Below, piece by piece: positions 9,497 to 35,560 of a stretch of DNA of 64,000 nt (position 1 is the first letter of the stretch; each line of letters opens with the position of its first letter). The stretch is taken from positions 14,328,187 through 14,392,186 of the forward strand of contig OZ020525.1 in the NCBI GenBank assembly GCA_963971425.1, in the 5' to 3' direction. The position numbers and the translations under genes are program-made. Source of the stretch: Bryoerythrophyllum caledonicum. Taxonomy: Eukaryota > Streptophyta > Bryopsida > Pottiales > Pottiaceae. Under the pieces are notes generated by a model. That model made no database searches, was not told where the DNA came from, and saw only the letters and a program-made list of their open reading frames with translations.

Positions 9497-10860
9497 TCAT
9501 ATATTCAATCGTAGATAGAACGAAATCTTTTCATCGCGCAGCATGACATACGATGTTTTTTGATAGACATACGTGAAAAGAATGGGATTTTGACATGAAT
9601 GAAGATGACTCACGATGGGACATGTAGAAGGTCGGCAGCTAGTTGAGGGTGAAACGCCCATCGTCAGTGTCACCGCTGGAGGGACTGCAAATCCTCTAAA
9701 TCCCCCTAGTTGAGTAAACAACTTTTGAGGCCCCTCCTTTGCCGCCAAGGCCGCAAACTCCCTCTACCTCTCCTTCGTCTTTTTCTTCTCCTTCTTAGAA
9801 CTCTCCTTCTCCAGCCTAGCAGCCTCCCTCTCATGTTCCTTAACTACTGCCTTAGCCGTTTTCTCAACAGCCTTGGCTTTGGCCTTCTCGGATTGCTCCT
9901 CAGACGCTGCCAACGGAGCCGCCAACAAGGAAGTATGCTGCTGGAAACAGGAGGGACTGCAATGGATTCGCAGGCCACTTGTAGCTGAACCTCGTCTCCA
10001 GGGGTGGGATTCACCTCCCGCATCTCCAAGTACCACGGGCATTGGAGGAGGTGGTGCACAAAAAACCGACGCCTCTAAGTAAAGATCTGTGAAGATACAT
10101 TCGGGAGCAGAAGTATCTATCCAATTTGTGAAACGGATGGGTAGATCTCCGACTAACAAGGCTCCATGGGCCACGAGCACTCTCCAAAAATATCGCATCA
10201 CTGCTCGCTTCAGGACCTTCTCGCAATCGTCATGCGCCATAAACTCCTCGTTCTTCGTGTAAGAGCCCCCATTTCTGATGTGAGTAGAAAATACTTTAGT
10301 CCACAACGTCATGCTCTTTGCCTCAATCTATTTTCCAATGGAGGGGATGGGATTTGGAAGCCCTTCAGTCTTAAGGACAATGTTGTCCTCAAGGAGAATC
10401 TCTGCGTAGAGCTTCTGAGACTCTTCTTCCAGCTGTAAAACGAAATCCACATAGTTAGGAAATTATCATAGACCAATCATACGAAAAAGCTGTGAATGTC
10501 AAGAAAGATTGGACCTTACCTCAGCCTAGAACGTTGCATTGTCAATCCCGCCACAAAGAACCTTATCCGATGCTGGCGACGCGGGGAAGTTATACTCCAT
10601 CATGCTGCCCTTGTTCATGTTCCACCACTTGCACCAGCACGACTTGAACTTCGCAGCTACCCTAGCCGTGGCGATGAGCTGGAGTTTTTCGGGAGTCATC
10701 TCGGGCCGCACCTGGTAAACATCAAAGTGACGATTCACCTACATCACAATATCAAGAATTAGAGTGGAATTTACAAGAGCAGAAGTTAGAAATTCAATAT
10801 GAAAAGGAATGGAAAAAAAACATTTACCCTACCTCTTTGAAGAAATCCTCCCCATTAGTC
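9497..10860 (-). pseudogene. Decayed multi-exon gene of unknown family
   Basis: Read on the minus strand, coding-like exons join in frame. One ends near 10830 (NGEDFFKE), one is 10738-10520 (VNRHFDVYQV onwards) and one starts at 10432 (LEEESQKLYAE). The last runs through a conserved-looking segment (HDDCEKVLKRAVMRYFWRVL) into a Lys/Glu-rich coiled tail ending AARLEKESSKKEKK. The frame is interrupted by TAG at 10528-10526, 10330-10328 and 9766-9764, each time with coding-like sequence continuing in the same frame. Between about 9950 and 10040 another frame looks more protein-like, so a frameshift is possible. I do not recognise the family. It looks like an inactive member of a repeated gene family or mobile element rather than a working gene. 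Confidence 0.5.
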
Positions 10861-11570
10861 AGATTGGCAATTCATTAGAACTAGATTCGGGTCATGGGAG
10901 GGCCCTTTGAATTCGATCCATTCTGGACACAAGGACATTGCCCGGGTCAAATTGGGGTACACTGGTTGCTGGCACCAATGGTGCCGACATGGACTGCTAC
11001 GAAGGAAATATGGAGGGTGAAGCCAATCACCGGCTCCTGTGTACAGTATACGTGGAAGAGAGGATGGATGCTCGGTACACTGCGTACTCAGCTTGAACTC
11101 ATAAAGAATTCTATTCAGAGGAGTGGTGCGAGTATTGAAATGTATTTGAATGTCCCTGGTTATCTCACAACACTTGGTACCTTGTACCGTTGGCCGTCAA
11201 CGTTCTGTTTGTTTAATCTATAACTACGATTTTAAATGTGGTTCAGCCTGGCCACGGCAGATGACATGTAGGACGAGGGATATAAAATGTGAGAAAATTT
11301 GGCCACGGTGGATGAGGCAGAGGGACGAGGGCGACACCGCAGCATTGGAAACGGCGGGAAGGTTGACTTCGTGGCATCATAGATCAAAGTGACGTCGTTG
11401 GCCGGTTGCTGGCGGGGAGTTGTGGATGCGGCAGCATGGTTATGTGCAAGTAAGTAGTTGTTAGTTGACTGCTTTTTTGGAGGTGAGCTTTTGAGAAGCA
11501 ACCGACTTTATGCTTGCAGAGTTCTAGATATCGGCTGTTGTGTGACAACATTGGTAGAACAGTTAGTAGA
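10861..11570 (+). other. Fragment related to the 26.1-kb locus, then upstream sequence
   Basis: On the plus strand 10868-10905 encodes IRT..GSWEGP. It matches at DNA level (CATTAGAAC..., ...TCGGGTCATGGGAGGGCCC) a segment read on the minus strand at about 26100-26140. A ~109-codon open frame continues to 11223 but has no recognisable domain. The rest is the upstream region of the next gene. An acceptor-like TTGCAG ends at 11519, so that gene could have an earlier exon here. Confidence 0.4.
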
Positions 11571-12921
11571 ATGCTGCGACGACGTGTGCCAAGGCCCGAA
11601 GTATGTACAGTGGTGGTTTACAATGACCAGGATGTTGATGGAAGATGGATACCGATGCGGTTGGAGATGGATTCGTGGGTGACTCTTCGAGCAGCAACCA
11701 GAGGACATTGGGGAAGGGACGCTCGGGCACATGGCGAGGAATCTGCCGTGGGAGCGTGGAAGGCTCAGATCAAACAGTTTCGATGGAGCACTCAGGATGC
11801 TACTAGTACCCGCACACCTAAGCTGGAGGCAGTCTTAGTTAGGCATGCTTACCTTCGTCAGCAAATCCACTTAGATCCTGAGGTTGCACACAGCGAGCCG
11901 CGTTGTGCTAACTATTTGTATGCATCGTTTTGGGAAGACTGGGTGCATCCTTCTTCGATACTGGACATTATTCTAGTGGTGCATCACGAAGTAGGGGAGG
12001 CTACTAGAAACGAGAGACGACATCGGGATTTGATGCAGAATGGCACCTTTTATTTGAGGGCGGTGTATGTGCCACCAGCAGGAATTGAACTCTTTGGACA
12101 TCTAGAGCCGATCCCGTTGCCAACCTTCGATGACCTTGCTTGGCCAGTACCCGACATGCAAACCTCGGAGGCATTCCGTTCTAGACTGACCAATGATTTT
12201 GCGGCCGCAATGAAACCCACCACTGGAAGCAAGGTGGCTCATATCCAGTGGTTCTTGCCCATGCATGTTATGGTCGACCTCTTTGCGACAGCAGGGGAGA
12301 ATGTGCGGCGGACAACAACCATGTACGTGTTTAAGGATCCCAGCCAAACACTGTTAAGCGACCTCATGGACCCTGGTTGGGACGAGAAGATTGTGATTGG
12401 CCAAGACATTACAAAGTGCGTGGTCAATAGAGAATCCATCGTCTTTAGGTATCACGTTGGTAGGCAGGTTCTATACGCCAATTTCCAGTACGCAAGGTTC
12501 AGGTCCGGTCCAAGACAGACATGGATTGCCATAGATCAAGCGGAGGTCCCAGACATGATCAACATGACGGTCAAGTTTGGTGATATGGAATTGCCATCGT
12601 TCGAGGTTGGTAAGACGTGGCCAGTGAGTCACATTCGATACGAAATTGCCATTGTATTGGGCAGAGACCGAGTTCCAGATGAGTACGATCTCTTCGTTGA
12701 GCGACCAGGTATTCCAGGTGTCAAGGTAATGACTCCGTAGAACTCTAGCACCCTGATGGCAATCGAGTTTAGCGAATATTGTCTTTGAAGTGGCAATGGG
12801 TGTACACTGACATCGATGAACCTACTTGTGTCTCTTTCAGATTAATGCAAGGAGCGAGCGAATTATGGAAATACAGCAAGTGCTACCGGCAGATGGGATT
12901 ATGAGAATGATTTCGGCATAA
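11571..12921 (+). CDS. Uncharacterised protein, possible ubiquitin-like C-terminus
   Basis: The first exon opens with ATG at 11571 (MLRRRVPRPEV) and ends at 12725. A clean GTAATG..TTTCAG intron (12726-12840) joins it in frame to 12841-12921, giving 411 residues with a TAA stop. The same frame is open back to about 11514 beside an acceptor-like TTGCAG, so an upstream exon is possible. The sequence is globular with no transmembrane helix or signal peptide. The last ~80 residues (MTVKFGDMELPSFEVG, then GIPGVKINARSERIMEIQQV, ending DGIMRMISA) have the rhythm of a beta-grasp fold, but this is inference only. I do not recognise the family. Unlike the neighbouring decayed loci, this frame is uninterrupted. 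Confidence 0.6.
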
Positions 12922-13489
12922 TACAAGTAGTATTGTGACATATGAGAAGATTTAGTCGTACCTCATATGTCATTTCAGTGTTTGGAAATATTAGTCGGCT
13001 GTAGCCCCATACAGAGTCCGGATGTAGCAATGTCAAATCAATCCAGCAAGTTCTGCGCAGGATGGTCTCAGCAAACAGTATGAGCATGATTTGTAACTAA
13101 AAAAATTGTTTTTTCCTAATTATATGTTTCTTGAATCAGTAACAACATTTGAACGCTGTAACGTCTGCACCTACAAAAAGGTCCATTTCAGCATATTCTT
13201 TTCTCATTTGACAAACATCGACCAAGGAGGCAATCTTCTGAAGACTCATGCAATTTCAGCTCCGAAGCTTAATGCACGTGAAGAATGAGCACTTGGTTCA
13301 AAATTAGCTAGTTCTAGTTGCAGGGATGTAGCGGTATGGATAAGGGTGAATTCATCACTTACCATCGAGAGTTATCGCCTGTGTTTATGGCTTCATTGGT
13401 TGCTTAAAGCATTCACTGGTTTTGCAAAAGCAAGAGAAATTAAAAATATATGAAATTAAAAAGCAAAAGAGTGTGTAGCAGAATACCGA
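12922..13489. other. Intergenic, with an imperfect palindrome
   Basis: No gene. TGACATATGAG (12939-12949) and CTCATATGTCA (about 12963-12973) form a short hairpin just after the preceding gene, perhaps in its 3' UTR. Confidence 0.4.
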
Positions 13490-14480
13490 AAGGAAAAGGG
13501 AAATCGAAAAAGGGTTCAGTCGAGGGTGGAAAAAAACGAAATCCTCAAAATTGAACTTGAACGAGCCAGAGAGTTGACTAATCCTTTCTTCTAAAGATTG
13601 CACAGAAATTAGGGAAGAACTTGAAAGCATAATGATACGGTTAATTTAGATTCGCTCCCTTGCTTCAGCAGGGAGAGGGATCACGTAAAAGAGTTATGCA
13701 TGTATATGTTTTGTTAGGAGTCTGAAATCACCACTTAAGCTGTCTGGGATAAAAGAATATTAAATACTGGAGTTCACGATTTCATTCGAAAATTGGAAAA
13801 AAGAAGAGTTTAAATTAGAGAAGACGGTCAAGCAGAAAATTAGAACAAAAAATGGAAAGAAAGGGATTGGGTTTAAGGTGGGTTAAAACAGAATTCATGG
13901 AATATAAAATTAAAACAAAACCAAAAAGTGGACTACTCCTTCCGTAGAGAGTGTGCACAGAACTCGGGGAAACAGTACTTCTTCCATTAATTTGATCACG
14001 AATTGAAATAAATAATGCCACTGAAAATTACCGAAGCAGAGTTCTGGGAGGAAGGAGCTACTCAGTTGGCAGTGCTTGAAATCTTGAGCCAGCAGCCTGA
14101 TCCTGTATTGAAAAAATTGAAGATATGTAAGACATATTAAGAGAAGAGGTAGTGGTAAATAACCGAAAAACAAAGAAGAAAGGAAAAATAAAAAGGATTC
14201 AAGTAAGGGTGGATTCAAGCAAAATCCGAAAAAAAAAACTTGAAGATATCAGAAAGTAAGCTAATCCATTCTTCAAAAGTGTGCATAGAACTTCCCCAAG
14301 AACTTGAAAACAGAACTTTGGGTTAACGTAGCTTCTCTTGCTTGCTTCAGCAAGTAATAAAGAAAGAAAACGATTAATGCATATATGTGTTTAAAACAGG
14401 AGTCAGAAATCACGAAAGCAGCGGCCTGAGATAGGAGCATAATACAATTGGAGTTCACGTTGTCATAGAAAATAAACAAA
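13490..14480. repeat. Degenerate tandem repeat, ~330-350 bp, about three copies
   Basis: Equivalent segments such as CTAATCC..TTCTTC..AAAG followed by TGCACAGAA occur at about 13578, 13931 and 14260. The GCTTGCTTCAGCA..., GGAGTC.GAAATCAC and GGAGTTCACG segments near 13660-13780 recur at 14335-14460. The copies are strongly diverged and A-rich. No coding sequence is recognised. Confidence 0.6.
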
Positions 14481-15714
14481 TGTGCGAGTAGAAAGTTGAG
14501 AGACTTTAAGAAGTTAACAAGCCATGAAAAGAGCGAAGTAGGAAAAAAAAAAACTAAAAAAATTTAAACCAGTAGGCTATCACTAGAACCAATTATCTGG
14601 GGTCATTGCTATGGCATGTAACTTAATTTGGTGCATGCTACCAATCTCCCCTCCAGGCGACCATACTACAGCATTGGCACAGAGCTACCTATATATATTG
14701 CTACTAGCGTACTGTTGGTATTCGGGTTATCAAAACGGCTGCTTACATGACCACTCGTTTTCAAGTTATCAAAAGGGAAGTTAAACAGATGCATGCATTA
14801 TATATGAGTGGAGTACTACATTATCATACAAGATGAACGAATATGTTGGTTGCTTTAGCAGTCGATCTCATGTACTCTTGCGGTAAGCTCTGGAATTGAT
14901 AATACTAAAGCGCTTCAGTGCACATCTGATTCCAGTCTTCTCTTTTTATTCGAATTTAATATATTGTAAACTCATGCATCCTTTAAGTCGATGCAGGATT
15001 ATATTTTCAGCTCAGATCACAGATCGGGTGGTTACTCTGTAAACATTAATCCATTTTTTTGTAGAACTTGTGCACTTAAACAGACAACCGTAGTACATAT
15101 TATAAATTTTGGAAGTAGGTATTTACTGAAAATGTCGATGCCCAGTGAGGTATTTGTCCATGGCGTGGAATTCAGTATCAAGTACCATCTCTCATGCTAA
15201 TGGCTCGATGCATTTGGCAAGAAACTAAGTATAGCCGTGCATCCGCTAAGAGCTTCATCCTGGAGAAAAAAATTGCAAAGACCTACGTTGCTTGTATTCT
15301 ATACTAAGACACTACATAGCCAGAGACAAAAGGGAGAAAACATCTGGGTTTGATACATAATTTCAATCACACGACGGTGGAGACGATCAAGCCGCAGCGG
15401 CCCTGAATTGGCATTGACGATACAGTGATACTAGCAACTGCATCCTAAAAGAGTCACCATTACCATGGATTGATTATTGTACCATTCATACCATCGACTT
15501 AGAGATACACAACATTCACGAAGTTTTGAGTCGATGTTGTCAAAAAAGCAGCGTTTCAAGTTCCATTGAAGTGGAGCGGATACATACTTATCACACGGTG
15601 GTGTTATAAGGAGCCACAGACTCTGGTGTTTTTTCATCTTCTAGCTGCACCAAACCCCCCAGGTTTGTTAAGACTATCCCTCTACGTTGTACTAAACAAC
15701 GCTCACTCTTATGA
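14481..15714. other. Intergenic region
   Basis: No gene or clear repeat recognised. AT-rich sequence lies between the tandem repeat and the 3' end of the next minus-strand gene. Confidence 0.4.
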
Positions 15715-17941
15715 TCATGATGGTGTAGTTGGAATTGCTTCTGCTGCCGCGGCACTTGCGATGTTGAGAATATCCCCATACTCTATACGAGTTGTTTCAT
15801 CTACAGTTCCGTCCCGCGAGGTTTCCTGTGCATCCGTGGGTTCAGTGCGGCCAGATGATACAGCGCATTGGCTTGCGTGTATTACAGTGTCACTTCCTAT
15901 TCCCTTTGCTGTAATTGTACACGGTGCATGGTGCGGGCTGGCACTTGCTACTTCCTCTCCCACTTCAACCTGTACCTTGCTATGAAGGGTAAGATCGCAT
16001 GTCACAGCATCAGTGTTGACACCTCCCACGGCAGCACGTGGAGGGATATCAAGTGCCAAGGCGATGTGCGTGTCCTCTTCAACGTCGGGCTGCTTTGTGA
16101 ACATGCTTGCATGGCAGAGTCGTTTGGGGGAGGAAAGTCTGCTGGGCGATGCGTCAACGATCTTCCGCTTAGTAGTGATAGCCATGGCCTTGATGCGAGT
16201 CAAAGGAGGCGCCCAGCCTGATCTGTTAACGGCCGATGATGTTGCCTCCGCTGTAGCAAGGTTCGATTTAAAGCCCCATTGGCCCATCCAGCCTACAGAA
16301 GGCTTAGTGTTGCATCCAGGACAACAAGGTTTGGAGGATAAAGCAACTTGGAACAGGCAGCTCGGGTGAAAAAGACAGCCGCAAGGTAGGTTCACTAGAG
16401 CCATATCAGCCCAGTAGCGACCGCATTCTGCACATGGGAGGTTCATCTTCAGCGGCACCATTTCATCAAGGTTTACTGGGAATGCTGAATAGAATTGTTG
16501 TGGGCGTATGCAGCTCTCTTGAACCACGAGGACATCAATTCTGGCGCTGAGATCGTTAACGGACTCCTGAAGCGAGGTCAACTGCGATCGCAAGTTTGCA
16601 GCTTCTAAAGTCCAATGCGATATCTCGGGGACCAAGGTTGAGAGCTTTGTTGAGACAGCAACTGCATCCTCCATGAGAGATCGCAGGCGTGTATCAACCA
16701 CCTTCTTTGAGGCGTCGTCCAGTACCATGCCATGCTTGGATTGCTGGATCCCGGCAAATTCCTCCCATTTTGATTGCTCCAAGCGCAACAACTCCTGGCG
16801 GTTGGTCTCCCGCATAGCGAGCGAGATTTCAGCATGCTCTAGCTCGTCTTTGACCTTGACTAATGCGGCTTCTTTTATGAAACGTTGCTTACGCAGTTGT
16901 TCAGATTCCTGACCTGAAGGCTTCTCCAGCGAAGCATCTACACTCCTCTCCGTGAGCTTCCTCTCACGTGGTTGCGCTAGTGATGTTGGGGGAGTCTGAT
17001 GTGTTGCTTCGGTGGGACCCTTCACCACCACATTTATTCGGCCCAGCGGGGACTTGCGACGTGCTTCCTCCAACGGCGCTGCACTACGTGGTTGTCGTTG
17101 TATGCCTACGGGTCGCGGCACACCTCCCTCGGAAATGGCCTTCGCTGCCGCATTCTTCTTGCGGACCATCTTGTCGACCACCGCCCTGAACAACTTCAAC
17201 ATGGCCTGGATCTGCTCACGTAAGCACGGTGGGGTCAGCTTCCCTGGATTCAGGACAGGGCTCTTGAGGCGGCTCTGCTTCAGGAAAACTCGCAGTTAGT
17301 AAATGGTTATGTTGACCAGACGTCAAGGCTCACATGAAATCAAAATGAACAAGACGAAAATCATGAATATGCATCGACGGCTGAGGTACTGGTTGGAATG
17401 TATGCGAAACTGTATGCAAGAAACATATCTTTGCTATCTCTGCCGCACCTTCAGCCCAGTTGATCTTCCACCGTTTTGCATCAAGCATCAAGCCCCTAAC
17501 GAAGGCAGTCCCGAATACTCCATTGTCCGGAGCAGTCCCGCCATAGACACGCTGGTACATTCGAAGAGCTCTCGCGGCTACATCATCAGTCATGTGGCGG
17601 AGAGGGTGCCGATTCTCGTTTTTGTTGAGGGGATAAGTCCCAACCATTGCTTCTAGCGGGAGGTTGTGTTCCTCCTTCAGACGCTTGAAGGGTACGCCAC
17701 TCATGGACAGTCCGCCTACGTCATGGAAAAAGTCCACGTTGTAGTGAGCTGCGTCCCCAAGCAAAAACGGTGCAACGGTGGTCAAATGCTTCCTCAAATT
17801 CTCTCCTATCCCTGTAAGGTCAAATGCCTCTGCCCAGATAGACGGATTCATGAAGTCGGATGTGGGAGGCGCTTCAAAACTACTAGTCTCTGAAGAACTC
17901 GCCTGGACAACTACTCTCTGTTGTTTCTTCGACTTCTCCAT
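15715..17941 (-). CDS. Uncharacterised protein with coiled coil and RING-like cysteines
   Basis: Two exons on the minus strand: 17941-17390 and 17274-15715, joined by a GTACCT..AAGCAG intron that keeps the frame. They give 703 residues and a TGA stop. Residues ~30-184 are a globular segment (WAEAFDLTGIGENLRKHL, DVGGLSMSGVPFKRLKEE, AARALRMYQRVYGG). A basic, proline-rich linker follows, then a long Glu/Leu/Arg-rich coiled coil. A Cys/His cluster (about 16435-16300) reads CAEC, then CLFHPSC, then CCPGC, resembling a RING finger lacking one cysteine pair. The C-terminus is low complexity. Possible roles such as an E3-ligase-like or element-encoded accessory protein are not shown. No premature stops were found, in contrast to the damaged loci either side. 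Confidence 0.6.
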
Positions 17942-18904
17942 CGGAGATAGCTACAGCCAGGTTGCGGAAGACTCTTGAAGTGAGAAGCGGAGTTGCGGCG
18001 TCTAATTCTTCGAGGCACTACTATGAATGAAAATTGAAAGTGTGAGGTATTGATCTCATGGATTGAATTCCTTGGCCCGTCATATTGAGATGTCATGTAA
18101 AGACATAAACAATGAAGGAGGGTCCTGGACTGTACTCTTGATGTTGTAAGTTCAATCGATGAATTAGAGTGGTGAATTTCGTACACTCTCCTGTCCAGTC
18201 AGTATTTTCGGTACACATCCTTCAACCATCATGATTTGGTGTGTCTAAAAAACCTAGCCCATGCTTGTGTACAGCAACATGTACAAGTTGATTCAGAAGG
18301 TCCTTGTTAGTGGAGCCTAGAAAATGCACTCGAAATGTGGGTTCCGCCCTTGCTAGTTGGGCTCCAGCATTATTAAACTTTTTAAGTATGTTGGACTGAT
18401 TCGCGAATCCCGTTTTGAAAGTCGGCTCTCCCCTTGGAAAGGACATGAAGTATTGCTGCTTGATGGGAACGCCCCAATCAATCGGTCTCATGTGTCCTGA
18501 ACTTGATCTCCTACCCCACTTTCTGGTTTATGCTTATCACATTAGTCAACCCTTGTACTACGTGATAAAAGGAATTTGACTCAAAGAAGCGTAGTGGATA
18601 ATTTGCAACCATTATCACCTCAATCTTGAAGCCGCCTTTATGATGCTGACACTAGGAAGCTCTGACGTTTAGTAAAATTTGACAACGTCCTCGAGATTGT
18701 ATTTTATAATTCTCTGGTAGTAGTGGATTATGTATTGGAGAAGCCGCTGTACACAATGGTATTTTTCAAGGTAATTAGCATGGTTATGAGATTGGAATGT
18801 CGGAGGTTGAAAATTTAAAAGTGACATTGCCATTGATGTATAGATGAGATGCACTTGAAGTTCAGATACTCCTTCCTTGCAGGTTTGGTATTCTCAATTG
18901 TCAT
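17942..18904. other. Intergenic region
   Basis: Contains the probable promoter of the minus-strand gene ending at 17941. A ~90-codon open frame at 18222-18491 has no recognisable features. Nothing else seen. Confidence 0.4.
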
Positions 18905-19830
18905 GCACTATCGATACTGCAAATTCCTAATGTGAAAGTTCTCCAGTTGCTTGAAAAAATTGCATCCATCCATTTTTCATCAATCCATTTTTGAATTGGG
19001 AGAAGTTGATGATTCATTTAAATTTCAATAAATGTGGACATTGTTATTCAGCTTGCCTAGCTTCAATCCTTTTTTTTTATTTGATTTTTATTGGGTTTAT
19101 TTCTATGCACACTAGTGCATGGAAAGATTACTTCACCTTGATGTTTCATTGAAACTTTATTTTTCATCCATGTTTCACTGAAACTATCCACCAAAGGATT
19201 AGTTCACTTTTAAGTTTCTTTTAAATTTCAATAATTAAAGTAATTGTTTTGACCCACTCTGACTTCATTTTTTTATTCTTTCTTATATCATCCCTCTCCC
19301 TCTCCCTTTTTCTTGATGACGTGGAATTAGCAACATATTAAAAAATAAAAAATCGCATAATTGTCAGGCACTGTCGATACTGCAAATTCCTAATGTGAAA
19401 GTTCTCCAGTTGCTTGAAACCCTTGCATCCATCCATTTTTCATCCATCCATTTTTCATCCATCCATTTTTAAATTGGGAGAAGTTGATGATTCATTTAAA
19501 TTTCAATAAATATGGATATTGTTATTCAGCTTGCCTAGCTTCAATCCTTTTTTTTATTTGATTCTTATTGGGTTTATTTCTATGCACACTAGTGCATGGA
19601 AAGATTACTTCACCTTGATGTTTCATTGAAACTTTATTTTTCATCCATGTTTCACTGAAACTATCCACCAAAAGGATTAGTTCACTTTTAAGTTTCTTTT
19701 AAATTTCAATAATTAAAGTAATTTTTTTGACCCACTCTGACTTCATTTTTTTATTCTTTCTTATATCATCCCTCTCCCTCTCCCTTTTTCTTGATGACGT
19801 TGAATTAGCAACATATCATAAAATTAAAAA
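18905..19830. repeat. 463-bp direct tandem duplication
   Basis: The block starting GCACTATCGATACTGC at 18905 is repeated from 19368 (GCACTGTCGATACTGC) with few differences to about 19830. Differences include a CATCCATCCATTTTT microsatellite expansion in the second copy. There are no LTR-like termini or coding sequence, so it is a local duplication. Confidence 0.85.
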
Positions 19831-20580
19831 AATTAAAGAAGATATATTGGCTTTTCTATTTTGGCTTCTCTACTTTTGGTTATTTAATTTTTTAGTTTTT
19901 TACCCGCATCTTCATGACATGGAATTTGCACCATGTTAAAAAAATTAAAAGAATTAAAGAAGGGATATATAGCTATAGAACATATTTTATTTATTTTCAT
20001 TATTCTTTATTTTTATTATCCTTTATTTTTATTCCTTTCTTCTACCTCACATTCCCCTTCATCTTTCTTTATTCCCTTTCTCTCTCTTTATTCCCTTTAT
20101 CTTTCTTTATTCCCTTCATCATTCTTTATTTTATTTTTATTTTTATTTTTTCTTATCGTCTTCTTTTCCCCATTTTCCTTCACCTTTCTTTATTCCCTTC
20201 ATCTTTCTTCTTCTCTCTCTCTCCCTCTTCCTCCCCTTCATCTTTCTTCTTCTATCTCCCTCTCTCTCCCTTGTCCTTGATGATGTGGAATTTGCATCGT
20301 ATTAAAAAATGAAAAAATAAAAGTGAGATATATAGTTTTTTTATTTGTTTTGGGTTTTTTTTTTTATCCCTTCTTCTTTCCCATTTTCCTTCATCTTTCT
20401 TTATTCCCTTCATTTTCCTTTATTCCCTCCATCTTTCTCCTTCCTTTCATTTTTTTCCCTTTATTCTCTTCATCTTTCTTCTACTCTCCCTCTTCCTCTC
20501 CCTCCCCTTCATCTTCCTTCTTCTATCTCCCTCTCTCTCCGTTGTCTTTGATGACGTGGAATTTGCTAATATTAAAAATA
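19831..20580. repeat. Pyrimidine-rich modular repeat array
   Basis: Long CTTTCTTTATTCCC and CTCCCTCTCTCTCCC tracts alternate with a conserved spacer of the form TTGATGACGTGGAATTTGC near 19909, 20275 and 20547. The same spacer ends both copies of the preceding duplication (19312, 19790). The open frames here encode only Phe/Leu/Ser low complexity. Confidence 0.7.
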
Positions 20581-20599
20581 ACCCATGACCATTGCTATC

Positions 20600-20720
20600 A
20601 GTGCATGACCGTTCCCTTGAGCCCTAGACCGCCGCTTTTGGCCCCACGACTGTTGCATTCGGCCCCATGACCACCGCATTGGGTCCCATGGCCGCAACCT
20701 CCTGCCCCATGGACGTCGGT
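20600..20720. repeat. GC-rich minisatellite
   Basis: About five degenerate 20-25 bp units of the type GGCCCCATGACCACCGCATT. The unit is markedly more GC-rich than its surroundings. Confidence 0.6.
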
Positions 20721-20825
20721 TTCTGTATTTCTAACCGTCAGTCCGAGCCCAATGCCCGTCTCTTTGGGCCCGCAACCGTGAACAGCAAACGAATTGGGCT
20801 TCATCCCTTAGACTGTATCATTTGG

Positions 20826-20905
20826 GATGAATGTAACTGGCCTTTAAGATACATGAAACAGAAATACATTTTCATTTCAATATTCCAAGTTACATTCTGT
20901 TGAAT
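20826..20905. repeat. Small inverted repeat
   Basis: GAATGTAACTGG near 20829 faces CCAAGTTACATTC near 20885. The intervening sequence is AT-rich. It may be a short MITE; no target duplication was identified. Confidence 0.35.
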
Positions 20906-21043
20906 CCTGGAACGTTTTATCAACGCATAATTATTGAAATTTATTTAAAAGTAAATAAATTGTATTTTCCAGATGTCTTACCTTGTACTTTCCAGTTCCC
21001 CTGTTCCTCATTATCTTCATAAGTACCATTTACATTGGCATAA

Positions 21044-21320
21044 CTAATTAGCATTTCTGAACTCTGAATCTCTAATTGCATAATCTACTCCATTCTAAGT
21101 GAAACTGTGGACGCCAAATTAAACAAGGTCAGTAAATCAGATTCCAAGCAAATCAGGCTTCAAGCTTAATCTTACGTTTGCAGAACTAATAAGCATTTCC
21201 ATATTCCAAATCCGGAATTGCATAATGTACTCCATTCTAAATTAAGTAGTGGACACCAAATTGAACATAGTAAGCAAATCAGATTCCAAGCAAATTGTAC
21301 AAATTGGACAGCAAGCTTAA
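21044..21320. repeat. ~140-bp tandem duplication
   Basis: ACTAATTAGCATTTC... (about 21044) and ACTAATAAGCATTTCC (about 21184) start two similar blocks. Both contain TGCATAATCTACTCCATTCTA-like and CAAATCAGATTCCAAGCAAAT segments. Non-coding. Confidence 0.65.
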
Positions 21321-21419
21321 GCAAATGAAACAAATCAAATTGAAATTACACATGCAATTGAAATATTTGGAACCATAGAAGTTTTTCAACACATCATGCT
21401 CTTTGAAGTCCCGGGAGAG

Positions 21420-21447
21420 GTAAGCTCCACTGACTCAGTGGAGTTAC
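21420..21447. repeat. Palindrome centred on TGACTCA
   Basis: CTCCACTGACTCAGTGGAG (21425-21443) has perfect 9-bp arms, extended outward by GTAA/TTAC. The centre is a GCN4/bZIP-type site. Whether it has a role is unknown. Confidence 0.5.
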
Positions 21448-22052
21448 CGAATCACTTGTCACCAAAATTAAAGCAGAGAAAATAGTAAAGCAGAGGAAAA
21501 ATGAAACAGAATAAAAATACATCTACATCATCTGTAAATATCCACATCTTTTTTTCGTAAAGAATATCTACATAGATATATTCGTCGCGGGAGCTCCCAC
21601 CTGGGAACAGTAACTACGAAACTCAAGTAGCCGCCTGCTAGAGCGTCTATGCTGGCTGATGAAGTACATAATAATCTATGCATGTATTTATGATTTCAGG
21701 AGTGTTAATTTACCGAAGTCCAGTCCCAAGACAATTTGGTTATAGAATTGCAGTTAACGATTCGACCTTAATTAGAACAATCAGAATAAGAAATAACAGG
21801 GTAAAGCTAATCAAAAGTTTCAAATGCAATGGCTACTTGTCTTGAAAAGTATTGTCTCCTCAATTTTAAAAAAAAAAAAAAAACAAATACTACAAGTCTT
21901 CTGTTACATGTTCACAACGGTGACGCCCATGCAAACTAATGTCTGTTCACAATTTGACACCATTTTTTAAAAAAATTCCACCGTTTCTGAATTTCTATAC
22001 CATGCACGTTAAAGTAAGGGAAAATTATGTGCACATTGAAAATATAGACCAG

Positions 22053-25000
22053 CTAATTAATATTCGTAACATGGTCTTCACCGTACTCTGTTTCTTGACT
22101 CTCTTCTGTACTCCCCGCATACTCTACTGTCCTACTTGGACCAACTTCATCCTTCCATTGTGATGCAAGATGATCTTCCGTCGAAGCCGCAGGTGTTGTA
22201 TCAATAGTGTCACCTGTGTCTAGGTCCTCTTGCCGGATATTTGTTTCAACAATCCGCACCCACCTCCGTCCTTGCCGCACACGTCCTTCGCGCCACTCAC
22301 TGAGCCTTGCTGCAGCTCCAGAACTGGTCCACGCCCTATGTCGACGTTGCGCCTCCTCCGCAACGTGGCTGGCTTCCGCAGCAGAACAGGCACTTCCCGT
22401 CGACTGCTGTGCGATCTTCCTAGCATATCTATGCTGAATATTCCTGTACCAATGTTGATATTGTTGCACTATAATACTTGTTCGATCCTTCGTACCTCCA
22501 TGCTGTGTATGTGCTTGACTGGCCGCCTTTGCAGCATGATGCGACTTCTCCATACCTTGGCAGCTCCAGACCGACAAGGATCCATATTTTTCCACAAACC
22601 ATGTTCCATGCCGCACAATTACGTGCTGCAAAACAAATCAACATAGCAAGTAACGCCGTCACATGTTTAACCATAGCCTTGCTTCAAACAAAACTTGACT
22701 GGGACCCTTCGCAGATTAGTACATAGTAGAAAGAAATCACGACGTTCACATCAAGCTCCAACTCACCATGTAGTGTGTAACATGGTTTTCTCCAAATGCT
22801 TTTAAGAAAGCCTTTCCGAATTGATCCAGCTTAGCCTTGCAAGCTCCTCGTTGCTCCGCTGTCAGCACAAGCCCAGTGAGGTATGGTTGTAGTTCTTCCA
22901 AGGCTTCCCACACCTGAAAACGGTTCCTTCGTGCTTGACCATTCTCGAGGTGGTTATTCTCGGACATAACCACATCTTTCCATGCCCTATCCTGATTTGA
23001 CCAAGAGCTAGGCTGGAAAAGCCTGCTTGCTACTACTCCGCTCAAGCTCGGCTTCATCACGACGTTACCTGCTTTACCAGACAGTTTTTCGTCCTTCTTC
23101 AGTTGGCAATTCCCTCCTTCCACCCCAATGGCAGACAGAGACTTCTCCATAGACTCGATCGCCACGGCCCTCCTTTCTTCATTCTGCATGTTCCATACAA
23201 AAATGAAATGGAGATGAAGTAATTTCTCTACCATGCGAACCTGCGCATGCAAGGTACACATGTGTGTTCTTGATAGAGGAATTGGCAGCACCATTTTCCA
23301 CCGAGGGTGAGTGGCGGCATCACATGGTTCTCCTTCGATTCCGCTTGCAAATAGTCCACCCTGCCACTTACCTTTTTCTCGACTTGCATGCTCACGATGT
23401 GCTGCTGAAGCATTGGCACACTTCTTCGGTTGCTCTCTAACTTGTTTACAATAAATGCAGTTCATCTTGCTGGAAGGGCCATGCTGAAGCCCGTGCATGC
23501 ACTTGATAGTTTTCATGTCTGCACTCATGTGCCATTCCACGGTGAAAGATCCAACACCATCCACGCACAGCTCCTGACCATTGCTCTGTGCTTCTATTAC
23601 CTCTGGGAACTTGGTTTTTTTAAAAACCCAGTCAAGCACATCAAATGACTCCTTACCGACTTGGAAGCATGCAATTGGCCATATCTCCTGCTCTGACTGC
23701 ACCGAGAAATATCTTTCATCATTCTTCTGGATCACTGGATCGAGTGCCCGGTTCATCAACGTTAAGCTGACACGCTCATATTTCTTGCCCTGTTGTACTT
23801 CCGCTTCGTCCAGCTTCAACACAAAGATAAGCGGTCCACCATTGCACTCTGCAACACTCCGAAGCACTATCAGAAGTTTACATTACAATTTTTTCATTTC
23901 ACTTTTTCAATAGTAATGCAAAAGTGTGATTACAAAGTAATTGAATAATCTAATATTTAAATTTTAAATGTTGTTTATATTCCTTTACACACACTGAATA
24001 TGCATTTTATAATCACATATTTTATAAATCATAAAATTAGGACAACAAGACCCTCTCTACTGTTGGTAAGTCAACTTCTACTTATCCACAACTGGGCAGC
24101 ACTGTGAATATGGAAATGGCAGAACTTATACGTTGAAATGAATGAACAGCGAAGTCGAGTTGACGCAGCAAAGTACCTTCAACAGTGATGTTGTAAAACA
24201 GAACCATAGATCGTTGAACAACTTCGAGGTCCACAAACAAATTATTCTTGCTATGAAGGATGACCTCCTTTGCTGCCGTTATCTCCTTCTTACCTTGACG
24301 AACTGCTGGAATCACACGTCTACCCTCAATACTATAGTAGTTACCGATAAACTGAGGCAACTTAGCATTCATATCTTGTCGCAAACTAGCTAGTCGATGT
24401 GGAGCAGGCAAAATGCTTGCGGTCATACCAGGACCAATCAACCCAATCCGGTTTTTCAGTGTTCGATAGATCGCCTTGTATCCTCGATGAGTCACACCTG
24501 CTCCATCACATGCGTCCAGCATTGCATCAGGCCCCACACTGTCGCCAATCTTCTGGAGAACCTTCTTCGCTACACCGGCGGTTGCTTGGCTCATTCTGGG
24601 TTGGTCGATAAGCGCATTGGCTTCACCTTGAGATAAGATGCTCGCAACTGCTGCAGCAGTTATACCTTGAGCAAATGAATCTCCCATCAGCCGTTTCCTT
24701 GACCCGCCAAGTCTATTACTCGTTTGCACGCTCTCAACGATAGATGGTTGCAATTGTGCTCTTACCATGGTCCTGCGACGCTTAGCATGTCCTGACCCAC
24801 TCGCAAGCTCGTGTAGACTCTTCATTCTCTTCCGAATCCGTTCGCGATAACCTAGAGGGGTCTTCACCATCTACCTAAATTTTTTTTCGACCCTATCATA
24901 ATCAGCTTGGCACTTTTTAAGTTTCTCTTCGAGCACCCGCACCTCCTCCTGGCATTGTAAGCCCTCTGCCCCCATAGTACTTTCTGCTTGAGTTAGCAAC

Positions 25001-25551
25001 ACCTTTAACTCTAAGCATGCGGACTCCAGTGTTTTCACATCACTTTCTAGCTGCTGACGTTCCTCTATGTGACATGCTTCAGCAGTAGACATGGTCCTCA
25101 CTTCTTCGTGGAGTTGATGACATTGACTTCGCAGCTGCTGTATCTCATTCTCGTAGCCTCTCACTCTTTCTTCTAAGGACCTGACGATACTCTGCAATGA
25201 TTCAGCCATTGGCCTCCACCGCATGCTTCCATCACTGTCCGAACCAGTAATCTTCAAGCGCTTTGTATAACCCAGCATCCCACTCTCACCATGGCACAGG
25301 AACTCTAAATACTGTTTGGTAGTCTTGAATTCTGGCGGAGAATCAGTCGCAGGATCCGGCGGGTACAAGCTCCCATCAATCCATAGATCAATGTGTGTTT
25401 CGCCTGCTGCTCTCCGTGTAGGGAAACTTGAACGGCTCGCTTGTTCTTCAATAATCCTCCCCTTCCGAATGGCCGGAGCATACTTGTTGTCCATCGAAAT
25501 CTGCACTGCATAACTACCTGGCACTCCATTCGTGACATCTCTCAAGGCCAT
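22053..25551 (-). CDS. RAG1/Transib-like DDE recombinase, one in-frame TAG
   Basis: Three exons on the minus strand: 25551-24177, 23866-22767 and 22625-22053, with GT..AG introns that keep frame. They give 1015 codons plus a TAG stop. ATG 25551 has a good context (AGGATGG). Residues 1-226 include a coiled coil. An in-frame TAG (24873-24871, codon 227) is followed at once by ATG, leaving an unbroken 788-residue frame with the whole catalytic part. Candidate active-site residues are Asp478 (IFVLKLDE), Asp575 (HMSAD) and Glu851 (SCQGMEK). Zinc ligands would be Cys595 and Cys598 (CIYC) and His826 and His831 (HVIVRH). The spacings D-97-D, D-20-C, C-3-C, H-5-H and H-25-E nearly match mouse RAG1 (600/708/727/730/937/942/962); the last three are identical. 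The order and fold context (beta strand then Asp, LHxxxR helix) also agree. A DNA-cleaving transposase role is inferred. Element ends were not found. Confidence 0.72.
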
Positions 25552-25971
25552 CCTTCTAGATCCACTACTAATCACACACAGAGCTCTAAACAAGAAATAG
25601 TCACCCTGCCGCAGGGTCCCGCGGGCGCCTGCAGCCTGCTGAAGGAAGTGTAAACCAGCCTACAACCTCGCTTCATGCAGAACTCATGCAATGAACTGGA
25701 GCCGCATTACCTCAACCGCCGTTCATAACGGTCTGAAGTCCACGCGGGCTACTACATCGCAGCTCATCTACACGCTCTCCCGCCTAAATCGCTCCGAGGT
25801 GGCTCATACATGTGGACTTTGGCGCGAATCTGGTCACCCCGCCTCCGCATTAAATATTCTCTGTACAAGTTATTTTTAAATGCGAACACCATCATGATAA
25901 GTCACCCAGGGTCCTCGGTTGCCATGGAAGCGTTGGCCACGAGGCTCCACGCGTCAGCCCACGGCCCATGT
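25552..25971. promoter_or_regulatory. Putative promoter region of the recombinase gene
   Basis: A GC-rich stretch lies between two minus-strand genes. An ATATTTAA box (read on minus, about 25857-25850) lies some 300 bp before the proposed ATG. Assignment is tentative. Confidence 0.3.
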
Positions 25972-27461
25972 TCACCCATTCATCATGCCATCAGAGGCAT
26001 GCGGATGGTGACTACCAGGGAGCTGCCCACACTCCCTGGTCCTTGTTGGCGCACTACCCGCCCCGAAAATTCCACTTAAAGGTGCTGCCCGGACCTGCCT
26101 TATAGGGCCCTCCCATGACCCGACATTGGTTCTAATGGCCAACATCCGAGTGAGCACGGTCTGGGAAGTCGTCTTCTTCTTTTGCACAGCTTCAATGCAA
26201 CGGCTCACCAACTCTGCAGCACTTCCACGCCGATCTTCACTAACACCCATGACCAAGTTGTCCTTAAATTTTCGGATCTACTCCTCTTGAACAGCAATCA
26301 GGTCCCGCTGTGGACAACATAAGATCGTGATCAGTTTTAATATTTTGAATTGGAATATTAAAAGGAGAGGAATGGCAAGTGCTACCTGGACAAAGGGATC
26401 ATTACATACCTCATACATGAGCTTCACAAATGCTTCGAGAGTCATATAATACCACTTTCGTTGTCCCTTCTTTGACCACTCAAGGACACTCAGTTCGTAA
26501 TCTTCATCGCTGATGAGCCCCTTCAACTGCTCAAACTCTAAGAGGCCGAAATGTTGAACACGCTTTATGTCGTGTGTGAGGTGTTGCACAATGTGATCTG
26601 ATTCTTTTTGCCTACGACAAAAGAAAATTTCAGTGTCATTAAATGAAGTACAATAGTAAAAGCAACTAAAACAAACAAACTTCAGAGTATCTAAGTTCAA
26701 GCGCACCTGTTTATGTAGGTCATTACGTTGAGCAAGATGTGTCGGTTCTCGATAGTTGGCTCAATAACCACGGCTCTAACGGGCACGTGAAAGGTGACAT
26801 CGGATGGGTGTAGTTGGGAAATCACCTCGGTCCAAGCCATATGGCGATGATTGCCATACGGCTCAAAGAAGAACTTCTCTGAAAACGCCGAGTACTCCGG
26901 TCGAGTCTTCAACAACTCCTCGAACTTCCGGTCCTCTTCAATCCAAAGCTTAGACCACGTTGACCTATCTAGTGGTTGCACCCGCTTCTCGACAAGGGAT
27001 AAACTCTTCACGGACACATAAAAACATGCAGAACCAGGCCGATACCCATTGACAAACTCCCCCTTCAATTTCTCGACATCACTTCTAAGAGGTGACCTCA
27101 CTTCACTCATGGTTGCACCCGCTTCTCGACAAGGGAGAAACTCTTCACCGACACATAAAAACGTGCAGAACCAGGCTGATACCCATTGACGAACTCCCCC
27201 TTCAATTTCTTGACATCACTTCTAAGAGGTGACCTCACTTCACTCATGGGCACCATCCGGCAGAGAGGAATTGGGAGATCACCAGCGAAAGAGCACATGC
27301 TGCTATGTAGGATGTCGTATGAGGTCCCACGGATGGACCTCCGCAAAGATTGAAGTGTAGGAGCCAGCCCATGCTCATCAAGTTCAGTGACGCGTGCTTT
27401 GTCCTCCATAATTTCAAGGTCCTCACGTGAAGAAGTTGTTGTAGGTCCTAAACTCTCAACC
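25972..27461 (-). pseudogene. Broken companion gene of unknown family
   Basis: Minus-strand exons follow an acceptor at 27462 (TTGCAG|GTTGAG). The coding sequence runs VESLGPTTTSSREDL... through a 137-bp tandem duplication that shifts the frame, then continues to 26707. It splices to 26611-26410 (RQKESDHIVQHL ... FVKLMYE) and to 26307 onward (RDLIAVQEE). At 26280-26278 an in-frame TAG interrupts, yet coding-like sequence continues in the same frame (IRKFKDNLVMGVSEDRRGSAAEL ... RTNVGSWEGP) to 25972. No domain is recognised. The gene lies upstream of the recombinase gene in the same orientation and could be an accessory gene of the same element, but that is inference. One part of it recurs at 10.87 kb, which supports a repeated, mobile family. 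Confidence 0.5.
26974..27247. repeat. 137-bp perfect-period tandem duplication inside an exon
   Basis: GGTTGCACCCGCTTCTCGAC starts copies at 26974 and 27111, with period 137. The copies differ at several positions, so it is not simply a read-assembly echo. Because 137 is not a multiple of three, the duplication shifts the reading frame of the surrounding gene. Confidence 0.9.
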
Positions 27462-27901
27462 TGCAATAAGTATGCATGAGAAACCGAAGCAACAAATTGC
27501 ATCCACCTGAACTAGAAACTTGAAATGAATTAAGAATTAAATCTAGAATAGACGAGTACACTAAAGTCCTGCTCATGCAATCCAACAAGTATGGCCAAAA
27601 TGGTCATGAAAAAAACTTCGGGCGAAATAAAGCAATGTCCCTCCCCCACCCCAGCCTAGCCCTCTTAAGCCACTCACTCACTACTTCCCACCCCACCCAC
27701 TCTCCCCAGCCTCCCACCCACACTCCCCACCCTCCCACCCACACTCCCCACCCTCACGACCTCTCGCATTTGGACTCCCTCAGCACTCTCACGAGGATCA
27801 GGCAGAGAGAAATATAGAAATCGTGAACACAATCTCATGATCGTGACCGTTAACGGAAGAAGAAATATGCGCGCGCGTCGAAGAACTCTCTAGTTGGAAG
27901 A
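27462..27901. other. Intergenic, with a C-rich minisatellite
   Basis: CTCCCCACCCTCCCACCCACA-type units repeat about three times between 27690 and 27755. An open frame across it is proline/histidine low complexity. No gene. Confidence 0.6.
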
Positions 27902-28350
27902 GGATTCTCAATTTTTTATCAAAATCAGTGACCCCTGAAAATGGCTTTCGGATCCGAAAGCCAAAATCAGGGGTCACTGATTTTGGTAGAAATTCACGAT
28001 TCTCCCCCCCTCTGGATGGGATCCTTGAATTTTTACCAAAATCAGTGACCCCTTAAAATGGCTTTCGGATCCGAAAGCCAAATCAGGGGTCACTGATTCT
28101 GGTAAAAATTCACGATTCTCCCCCCCTTTGGATGAGATCCTTGAATTTTTACCAAAATCAGTGACCCCTGAAAATGGCTTTCGGATCCGAAAGCCAAAAT
28201 CAGGGGTCACTGATTTTGGTAAAAATTCACGATTCTCCCCCCTCTAGATGAGATCCTTGAATTTTTACCAAAACCAGTGACCCCTGAAAATGGCTTTCGG
28301 ATCCGAAAGCCAAAATCAGGGGTCACTGATTTTGGTAAAAATTCACGATC
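27902..28350. repeat. Tandem array of four 116-117 bp hairpin units
   Basis: Each unit carries the perfect palindrome GGCTTTCGGATCCGAAAGCC (starting at 27943, 28060, 28176 and 28292). Around it are inverted arms CAGTGACCCCTG / CAGGGGTCACTG, extended by ACCAAAAT / ATTTTGGT and GAATTTTT / AAAAATTC. One unit could form an ~86-nt cruciform. Units are separated by a C-rich linker (ATTCTCCCCCCCT). There is no coding sequence, and the units do not resemble CRISPR repeats. Confidence 0.9.
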
Positions 28351-30573
28351 CCCCCCCCCTGCACACACTCCCTCACCATTCACTCAGTACTCCTTCCCAA
28401 TTCACGAGCACACACTTAACATACATCACCCCACCCTCCAAACAGCCTGGTTCATGACATGCACTCCCTCACCATTCACTCGGACGTGCTCCTCACCTCC
28501 CTCATCTCGACCACCAACCCTCCCTCCCGACAACACCTGACCTCGGTCTAACCTAACTAGACCACCCTACGGATGATGAAAACAAGAATCAAATTATGAG
28601 GTTGACTTATTTACTTGAAAAGAAACAACAAGAGAAGCAAGACAAACTCTATGTTTTCTATTTTCTATTTTTTTAAATTATTTTTTGAAAATCAAGGCAT
28701 GATTTTTAACTTTTGAAAAGTTTTGGAGTGCCCCAAATATGGCTTTCAGATCCGAAAGCCATTTTGGAGGCCCTCAAAAGTTCACAAAAAACTTGAAAGA
28801 TCTCAATCTAGCAACAAAAGAAAATCCCAAAATATAATTTATATTTAACAAAGAAAATTTACTTGATGGTTGAAGGTAAGAAAGTGAAGATGAATATTAT
28901 TTTTGAAGAATTTTTTGGATTTATTTTCATATTCATTTTTGTTTATCAAACAATGTTTCTAAAGTTTCCAAGTTTTTCACTAGCTCAAAGGGGAGTTTTG
29001 GATCCAAAGGCTTTCTTTGGGCCACTTAAAAGGTTGAAAAGAGTTAAAAATACATTTATACTCTTATGGGAAAAAGAAATTCAAAAAATGAAATTGATAA
29101 ATTGACTCAGATTATCTGAACAGAGCAACAACAGAGGCAAACAAATTTTGTGTCTTGATGATAACTATGATAGTTGATATTTTTGATTAAATTTTTGGGT
29201 TTAATTTCATATTTAAGGCTTCTTAGCTAGCAGGCCATCTAGCAGTTTGATGGTAGTAGCAATAAGAACGTGCCTATAGAATATAAAAAATGGACATTTT
29301 TATTCCATTGAACTATATGCCTGCAACAAGGCACCAACAATAACATTCTCTCAAGTACCCAGGGTCAACACATTCCCATGTACAAGGTATGGAAAGAGTC
29401 CAAGACACAAGAGGAGGCTGAAGCACAATACTAAGTCATATAAAAGTGGTGGTTATCTTTGGGTGCTACTGCCGAGAGCAAGTGTCTTGCTCTTGAGGAT
29501 TGGATGGCAATATAGACAATGGGACTGCACAATGCAACTTGTAAGTACTCTTAATGCCTTGTACATTTTGGAATTAAAAACTATTTAGAAATCTAATTAG
29601 AATTTACATAAGAATTGTTGTGTCCTTGCATGATCTCACGCTTGATGAAAGAGCAGGCATGCCATCTTTCAGCCTTTTAGATACATTCTATTATCATTGC
29701 CTCGTAAAATTTGAAACCACCATGAGGTGTTTGTATGCGGCTACCATGGACAATATCATCCGAGCTTTCACAAAAATCACTTCATATTGAGCCTGGTTAA
29801 AACATGGCACGATGAAAAAGGTCACAACATAGGTACGCTTTGGTAGCAATCCATACAATTTAGGTGACTCCAGATTTATTGCAAAAGTTGTTCAACACTT
29901 TCCTAGGCCCTTCCAAGACATGCAGACTAAAACGTGCGGAGATCTTTAAGTCTACCAAAACCAAGCTTGACATGCCACTCATGTCAGGCCACAATTTTCA
30001 TTAATTGGATACGGTGAATTTCTCTAATCCACAAGATGGAACAAGAGTGACTCGAACAAGTACAGAAGAGGCCTTCAATGGACTAGATTCAACAGTTCTA
30101 CATACAACTTGAGTGTGGAATTGGTATGTGATCCATCAAAGTGGTTTATTGTTCGCGTGCCGAAGAAATTGACGCAAATATGCCAAACATTGTATGCTCA
30201 CATTGATGAGAAATGCGCCACTCGCCACTTGTCGCTCACCGTTCACGAGATAGCGTCGCTCCCATCACGGACTACCCCGCATGTAGTGCCAAGATTTCTT
30301 GAAGATGTCAGCTGAGGCGTTGGGAAAGAAGGGGCAATGGAAATATTGTAAGCATGTGTACTACATCTTACGTTACTTGTGTAAACTGGACTACAAAAAA
30401 GACCTGTTCATGCATGCTCCAAGCTACAGCTTCAATGAAGTTATACGCATACTAGAGCTTGCTAATATTGCAGAAATCGCATGATGATGTGCATCACGGC
30501 ATAAATTTTAATATTCTTTCTATATCTAGATAGCTAATGTGGTGTCAATATTCCAACTACGTGACTGTAGGTG
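28351..30573. other. Intergenic, repeat relics
   Basis: No gene recognised. A lone relative of the array palindrome (GGCTTTCAGATCCGAAAGCC) lies at about 28741. A weaker one (TTTTGGATCCAAAGGCTTTC) lies near 28994. At 30210-30265 there is a CTCACCGTTCACGAGATAGCGTCGCT-like motif shared with 31300. Short open frames at 30109-30484 have no recognisable identity. Confidence 0.45.
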
Positions 30574-35364: not shown

Positions 35365-35560
35365 ATACCGTTCTCGGCCTTTTGGCTAAGATCAAGTGTA
35401 GTATCTGTTCTTATCAGCTTAATATCTGATACGAGGGGCATCGCTCCTCACGATATTAACCTCATTTTTCTCGGGTGCGGGTCCATTCGGTAGCTTGCTA
35501 CCCGGACTCGCGAGCGTCGCCTTGGTCTTGCACTACCTCCTTGGCCGGCGCAGCCCTCAC
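35365..35560 (+). ncRNA. U2: U2 spliceosomal snRNA
   Basis: The sequence starts ATACCGTTCTCGGCCTTTTG and continues with the near-invariant stem I and branch-point region (GTAGTA at 35398-35403, GATCAAGTGTAGTATCTG). Stem IIa/b follows, then a U-rich Sm-site region (ATTTTTC, 35464-35470) and stems III and IV ending GGCGCAGCCC. The length of ~196 nt is typical. Stem IIb (GAGGGGC/GCTCCTC) differs from the common plant version but keeps pairing through compensatory changes. U2 base-pairs with the intron branch point during splicing. Differences from the usual form are G at position 6 and a C rather than G after the Sm-site U run, so it may be a minor variant copy. The exact 3' end is approximate. 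Confidence 0.93.

Follow-up and report, generated by a model that had tools for sequence, protein, structure and literature searches.

The systems closest to the locus described here are RAG1 with its RAG1-like relatives (RAG1L) in RAGL transposons such as ProtoRAG, and the Transib transposons. According to the portion of PMC7204232 cited here, RAG1L and RAG2L of animals lie invariably tail to tail, and the RAGL elements of protostomes invariably make 5-bp target-site duplications. The RAGL transposon of the alga Aureococcus is active and carries its two genes in one direction (PMC9435367). Transibs average 34% identity among themselves, and 39 potential Transib-like proteins were reported in plants by Tao et al. 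2022, with Juglans sigillata, Capsicum chinense, Hordeum vulgare and Silene latifolia among the species in the legend of their tree (PMC9435367). More widely, the EnSpm/Mirage/Chapaev/Transib (CMCT) group has C(2)C and H(3-4)H motifs throughout, mostly CA..TG ends, and duplications of 2-5 bp, and the fungal ESTA is also RAG1-like in HHpred (both in the cited part of PMC12730594). The locus under study lies in the nuclear genome of the moss Bryoerythrophyllum caledonicum, in a stretch of 64,000 nt (contig OZ020525.1, positions 14,328,187 to 14,392,186; hereafter the window), where a three-exon gene on the minus strand (25551..22053) had been described in an initial annotation as a RAG1/Transib-like recombinase core. 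This gene is very probably the transposase of a three-gene cut-and-paste DNA transposon with 34-bp inverted ends and a RAG1/Transib-type core.

The element is called here a new lineage of RAG1/Transib-type transposon, not Transib proper, and what sets it apart from the known elements of this type is the sequence of its ends, its probable joining geometry and its partner gene. The statement of the initial annotation that no land-plant member has been described is too strong in view of the proteins of Tao et al.; because these Transib-like plant proteins have already been reported, the novelty consists in lineage and anatomy. The family itself is undescribed in the open-licence full texts searched, and some of the reported plant proteins may belong to it. 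They share its kingdom and superfamily and were set against it by the published average identity only (PMC9435367); the moss family is far below that average when compared with insect Transibs.

The transposase gene and its mobile element

The gene, the element that contains it and the element ends are as follows (positions in the window; relatives of the protein carry P numbers):

24177..25551, minus strand: transposase exon 1, with an N-terminal domain, a coiled coil and a stretch of weak alignment to the DNA-binding and dimerisation region of RAG1/Transib
23849..24176, minus strand: intron 1, GT..AG borders; join run through by P0001, P0003 and P0044
22767..23848, minus strand: transposase exon 2, with catalytic Asp 23810 (D472) and Asp 23519 (D569), Cys 23459/23450 and an H795-like His
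22626..22766, minus strand: intron 2, borders GTGAGT..TTTTGCAG; join run through by P0044 and P0072
22053..22625, minus strand: transposase exon 3, with zinc His 22625/22610 (H820, H825) and catalytic Glu 22550 (E845)
24871..24873, minus strand: in-frame TAG at residue 227 of exon 1 in the window copy
10873..26137, no strand assigned: the mobile element in full (15,265 bp); the match to the five other copies in the genome begins and ends at these positions
10873..10906, plus strand: left terminal inverted repeat CATTAGAACTAGATTCGGGTCATGGGAGGGCCCT, 34 bp
26104..26137, minus strand: right terminal inverted repeat CATTAGAACCAATGTCGGGTCATGGGAGGGCCCT, 34 bp, with 30/34 bases as in the left repeat

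The element is present at six loci of the genome with 98.9-99.5% identity across 10873-26137, one copy running on by 3-4 chance bases, and one copy is devoid of 11975-15068. Its ends start with CATTAG, giving CA..TG termini. In the 437-Mb genome the end pattern has 12 exact matches, which correspond to the two ends of the six elements, and the reversed pattern, used as a control, has none. A query with exon 2 returned at least 113 matches including fragments, six of them at 98-99% on six contigs, and a query with exon 3 returned 85; the host genome holds the six copies of about 99% identity together with some 75 older loci. The transposase gene belongs to a recently mobile transposon. The feature outlined at 22053..25551 by the initial annotation is the transposase gene and not the whole element, and the in-frame TAG had gone unmentioned there.

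The spliced frame places D472, D569, C589, C592, H820, H825 and E845 in this order, with steps of 97, 20, 3, 228, 5 and 20 residues. These are the nucleotide positions and spacings previously given for the Asp, Cys, His and Glu residues, with a residue numbering that was offset by 6. The three-exon model holds as well, with GT..AG borders at both introns and joins that are run through in relatives, and so does the proposal that a coiled-coil extension takes the place of the zinc region of RAG1 at the N terminus. The frame is open to residue 1009 in four of the six copies and stops at residue 227 in the window copy; it was read in five of the six, the C3 copy being left aside since its acceptor motif deviates from the motif searched. 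The exon-2 stretch of C3 contains a TAG absent from the other copies. Among the five young copies read at codon 227, the four other than the window copy have TCG, and the close relatives P0004 and P0005 also have a serine codon at this position, so the TAG of the window copy is a nonsense change. Exon 2 of the window's subfamily differs from two older subfamilies by 0.22-0.25 at first, 0.16-0.19 at second and 0.57-0.59 at third codon positions, and this excess at third positions indicates selection on the transposase protein.

The insertion sites were examined through empty copies of the host repeats in which elements reside. The window element resides in a host repeat that occurs at least 40 times in the genome (40 copies were listed). 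The six empty copies compared read GGCAATT|GCCAAC (one of them with a substitution), identical to the joined flanks without gain or loss. For the C3 insertion, four empty copies, CAGGGGA|TATAGC, equal the joined flanks and show a 5-base difference elsewhere. The three empty copies compared for the C7 insertion are about 3 bases longer at the junction than the joined flanks; either a few bases were lost there or the host repeat concerned is a variant one. The three tested sites thus show an exact join in two cases and a duplication in none. The C8 flanks carry an imperfect repeat, AGTGGTCTCTT / AGTGGCCTCTT, placed one base off each end, and no target motif is evidently common to the six sites. 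The host repeat around the window element (26138-27511 and 10678-10872) carries a reading frame, which by eye spans the empty site.

Other candidate ends were discarded. CAC-type ends in the window (32 found, 36 expected) are not above chance, and a blind search near the gene for inverted ends with a target-site duplication returned mostly A-rich matches, none starting with CAC; this search missed the element on account of its 15-kb length and its lack of a duplication. Two older copies, L025+L026 (position 14763) and L027+L028 (position 15684), have related candidate right ends, CATTAGAAGTAATGTGAGG... and CATTAGAAGCACTTTCGG...; their left ends were looked for and not found.

Conservation and likeness to RAG1 and Transib

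A first protein search retrieved 9 relatives, and a second one, using a four-sequence alignment as query, retrieved 70 proteins. Nearly all come from metagenome or sequencing-run assemblies; P0066 is from the fern Adiantum nelumboides, and its gene model fuses a degraded transposase piece (KLDK for KLDE) to unrelated sequence. No relative was found among viral contigs (queries P0044 and P0060), prokaryote genomes (query A2) or phage records. Most family members end at the second intron, and P0044 (898 aa) and P0072 continue beyond it with the His pair and the Glu. Alignment A3 comprises 62 of 72 relatives; the core alignments have 59 rows (58 relatives and the window), or 61 with two older copies added, 14 relatives with no core or an odd one being left out. 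The conservation of the core residues goes beyond chance. Over the 59 rows, with gapped rows not counted at each position, the first Asp (46/46), the second Asp (54/54), the Lys two residues after it (55/55) and the His that falls on mouse RAG1 H795 (57/57) are invariant, and the Cys pair is nearly so (first 55/55, second 54/55). The Trp six residues upstream of the catalytic Glu is found in 4/4 sequences.

The alignment of the family profile to mouse RAG1 by hhalign at default settings covers 329 columns and superposes exactly nine of the ten hallmark residues: the second Asp and the Lys, the Cys pair, H795, the AR-motif Ala, the His pair and the Glu. The first Asp is two residues off. With the two older copies added, the RAG1 score is 34.2 over 345 columns (best of 200 RAG1 shuffles 24.3; reversed 16.2) and the Transib score is 43.9 (best of 120 column shuffles 30.1; reversed profile 31.6). 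The C-terminal half aligns to 16 Transibs over 156 columns with an E-value of 2.1e-5 and a probability of 77%, spanning the LHA..R..E helix and the stretch GGAKARRF / DGNTARRF up to H-x4-HG; the long alignment gives 3e-4 and 40%. Secondary matches, weak but in the correct order, link the stretch around G-V-T/S..Y..IY with the DNA-binding region of RAG1 (0.31) and Transib (0.03).

P0072 matches RAG1 alone in the PDB (15/15 rows, best E 0.0041) and, up to E 10, RAG1 alone in Pfam (E 0.0032, 16.1 bits); the matched segment is the one that holds the His pair and the Glu. As yardsticks, mouse RAG1 reaches Transib in the PDB at E 0.0028, the Sipha flava Transib P0085 reaches RAG1 there at 0.042, and the RAG1 Pfam model picks up four of six insect Transibs (3.6e-7 to 0.0024), one of them above the cut-off, and misses the other two. 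Judged by this search test, the distance of the plant family from RAG1 is therefore about that of Transib. In Pfam, a CACTA transposase hits Transposase_21 at 1e-92 and has no RAG1 match up to E 10. Over 62 family members, Pfam returned mostly coiled-coil models and a few scattered ones at E up to 0.1, with RAG1 for one member, which taken alone is weak evidence. Among the matches listed, for 25 of 45 families, there is no transposase family other than RAG1, and no model reaches its cut-off over the core in the members scanned.

Several results weigh against a RAG1/Transib-type core. The RAG1 match of P0072 stays below the curated cut-off of 25 bits. The N-terminal catalytic half alone (A6) yields nothing, with a Transib E-value of 0.58 and no match in the PDB; PDB searches with profiles A2, A3 and A5 did not reach RAG1 (A5 has no exon-3 columns), and the HMMER family profile returned no row against 120 Transibs, RAG1 and CACTA. 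The initial RAG1 score of 30.2 exceeds the best of 300 shuffles, 29.4, by a slim margin only. The hhalign probabilities are modest, at most 77% for Transib, 40-47% for the long Transib alignment and 13% for a single RAG1 sequence. Global hhalign gives no sensible alignment, and when realignment is omitted the RAG1 match is confined to the last 33 columns. In the Transib alignment the second Asp is 3 residues off, and the first Asp and the Glu are unpaired. A single CACTA sequence scores 28.0 against the family (best of 200 shuffles 27.4), out of order, so that a single-sequence score near 30 is no proof. The Arg of the AR motif is present in only 14/55 members, and an adjacent target-site duplication is found in the flanks of none of the six copies, unlike in RAG1/Transib elements. 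The presence of a RAG1/Transib-type core in a plant nuclear genome, as first annotated, is nevertheless supported: the DDE triad, with C(2)C and H(4)H in order between the second Asp and the Glu, and the profile similarity across the core both agree with that superfamily.

Partner genes of the element

The remaining features of the element are:

17330..17950, minus strand: first open reading frame (ORF) of the partner gene ('B2' part), adjoining the RING ORF on the same strand
15715..17295, minus strand: second ORF of the partner gene, coiled coil and RING-type zinc finger, C-x2-C-x13-C-x-C-x2-H-x2-C-x11-C-x2-C
11487..12740, plus strand: gene A, third gene of the element, 417-aa frame
18896..19831, no strand assigned: sequence of about 478 bp duplicated in tandem within the element

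The C3 copy apparently has one unit fewer of the 478-bp duplication. Both partner ORFs occur in one frame in an older copy, with two stops between them, and because of this shared frame they probably constitute one joined protein. The eight RING ligands are preserved in two older copies at only about 30% identity. Against the PDB, the RING ORF matches PEP3 (0.0038, coiled coil and finger), AMFR (0.007), RNF126 (0.32) and BRE1 (about 0.3); in Pfam its match to zf-RING_2 (0.22) is below the cut-off of that model.

For the co-occurrence count, 113, 94 and 109 rows were reduced to 81 transposase, 59 RING and 83 gene A loci by leaving out second fragments and short remnants and by merging. A RING gene lies within 5 kb of 34 of the 81 transposase loci, and in 33 of these it is downstream and convergent (tail to tail). 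Within 20 kb the number rises to 44 loci, of which 35 are convergent and 9 have both genes on one strand; a rough random control, with positions shifted within 30 Mb, gave an average of 0.3 and never more than 2 in 200 trials. Transposase and RING gene share a strand in the young subfamily of the window and are convergent in most older copies, and this difference in orientation implies an inversion inside the element.

Searches of Pfam, NCBIfam and the PDB returned no relative of gene A. It is found within 20 kb at 34 of the 81 transposase loci; of its own 83 loci, 34 have a transposase within that distance and 49 do not. Several gene A loci lie near contig ends (for example C7:31500731 of 31.7 Mb, C12:23498339 of 23.5 Mb, C1:192145 and C15:454658-645927). 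This distribution suggests an accumulation at such places or a second life of the gene. No Pfam model for kelch or PHD, the domains of RAG2L, matches the three larger ORFs up to E 10, nor did gene A or the RING ORF retrieve a RAG2L-type protein from the PDB. The reading of gene A as RAG2-like was rejected, since neither the PDB nor Pfam supports it.

Comparison with known systems, mechanism and alternative origins

With HzTransib (PDB 6pqn; its insect relatives are among P0073-P0192) the plant transposase shares the LHA..R..E helix, the G..A(R) stretch, C-x2-C, H-x4-H-G and the order of these elements. By contrast, the plant element has CATTAG ends, no target-site duplication, a length of 15 kb, partner genes and an N-terminal coiled coil. 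The distance from the second Cys to the H795-like His is 60 residues in P0044, compared to 31 in Transib and 65 in RAG1. RAG1 and RAG1L share the nine superposed hallmark residues with it, and the convergent partner gene of RAGL elements has a counterpart in most older copies that have one near. However, the plant partner is a RING protein, no kelch-PHD RAG2L was found, the transposase has no RING, and there is no 5-bp duplication. RAGL ends read CACTWMC... (cited part of PMC7204232); the plant ends, with CATTAG, do not begin with the heptamer-like CAC of Transib and RAGL elements. Insertion that leaves no target-site duplication is described for the Spy transposons of the PHIS group, which are also DDE cut-and-paste elements; their transposase belongs to another family, and they prefer AAATTT (cited part of PMC4482050), whereas the plant element has no evident target motif.

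Because the triad, the zinc ligands and the Trp before the Glu are conserved, a RAG-type chemistry is anticipated. The Asp/Asp/Glu triad would bind metal, and the Cys and His pairs would hold one zinc. Like RAG1 and Transib, the transposase would process its CA..TG ends through a nick and a hairpin, the nick falling at the element border and the hairpin on the flank, so that the excised ends would be blunt. As no target-site duplication is seen, both ends may be joined to the target at directly or nearly opposed phosphates, whereas RAG1 and Transib attack 5 bases apart. The RING gene probably encodes an E3 ligase with a regulatory role towards either the transposase or the host, which in RAG1 would fall to its own N-terminal RING; the N terminus of RAG1 has E3 ligase activity, according to a title in the reference list of PMC4411706. 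A bolder proposal, which we advance tentatively and hold to be possible rather than probable, is a plant RAG1-type lineage at superfamily level with blunt insertion and a RING E3 supplied in trans from a convergent gene at the place of RAG2L. If so, the combination of a transposase with a convergent helper gene would be a plan either recurrent among RAG1-type elements or ancestral to them.

The broadest alternative is that the family is a CMCT lineage no nearer to RAG1 or Transib than to CACTA, Plavaka or ESTA, its RAG1 likeness being a property of the whole group. C(2)C and H(3-4)H are common to this group and therefore not specific to RAG1, and it is the wider alignment that makes that case; the CA..TG ends are likewise shared with CACTA/EnSpm and most of the group, and ESTA resembles RAG1 too (cited part of PMC12730594). 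A CACTA transposase, however, misses RAG1 in Pfam up to E 10 where P0072 matches it, and its alignment with the family is out of order. Moreover, P0044 and P0072 have no Transposase_21 match in Pfam up to E 10, and the H(4)H spacing, the LHA..R helix and the G..A(R) stretch of the family align with RAG1 and Transib. None of the 2-5 bp duplications that the group makes (PMC12730594, part cited) is seen in the plant element, and we regard this origin as unlikely, though it deserves to be kept in mind.

A diverged Transib proper, its duplication missing by decay or chance, would accord with the Transib score of 43.9, the best profile score among those tested. It is made quite improbable by six copies of about 99% identity with no adjacent duplication, by the two exact empty sites and a third with a loss, by the CATTAG ends and by the marginal blastp match to insect Transibs (best 1.3e-5, in a set of 122 sequences). 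The element might also be moved by gene A or a host enzyme with the RAG1-like protein as a passenger, given that zero duplication is usual for non-DDE recombinases and that gene A, present at 83 loci, has no known relative; yet the inverted CA..TG ends are those of DDE elements, the catalytic residues are invariant where readable, and gene A accompanies the transposase within 20 kb at only 34 of those loci, which leaves this scenario very little room. The initial annotation had allowed for either a transposase or a domesticated derivative. The transposase part stands: six copies of about 99% identity with shared ends denote a transposon gene, not a domesticated host gene, and the multiple copies, the ends with their empty sites and the nonsense codon refute domestication for the window copy, so that a host recombinase is hardly credible.

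The RAG1/Transib-type transposon described here shows that plant genomes can harbour a large unlabelled family of this type. RAG1 is at the origin of V(D)J recombination, and the loss of open-ended transposition by RAG is a live question; the plant lineage, recently mobile and with this core in common but other ends, another partner protein and probably another joining geometry, offers an outgroup in which the determinants of the 5-base stagger within RAG1 and the role of partner genes can be addressed.

Elsewhere in the window, a tandem array of palindromic units of about 116 bp lies outside the element at 27913-28360, and a full-length U2 spliceosomal RNA gene is located at 35365-35558. The gene content, which marks the genome as that of a plant, includes a B3 domain and LRR genes.

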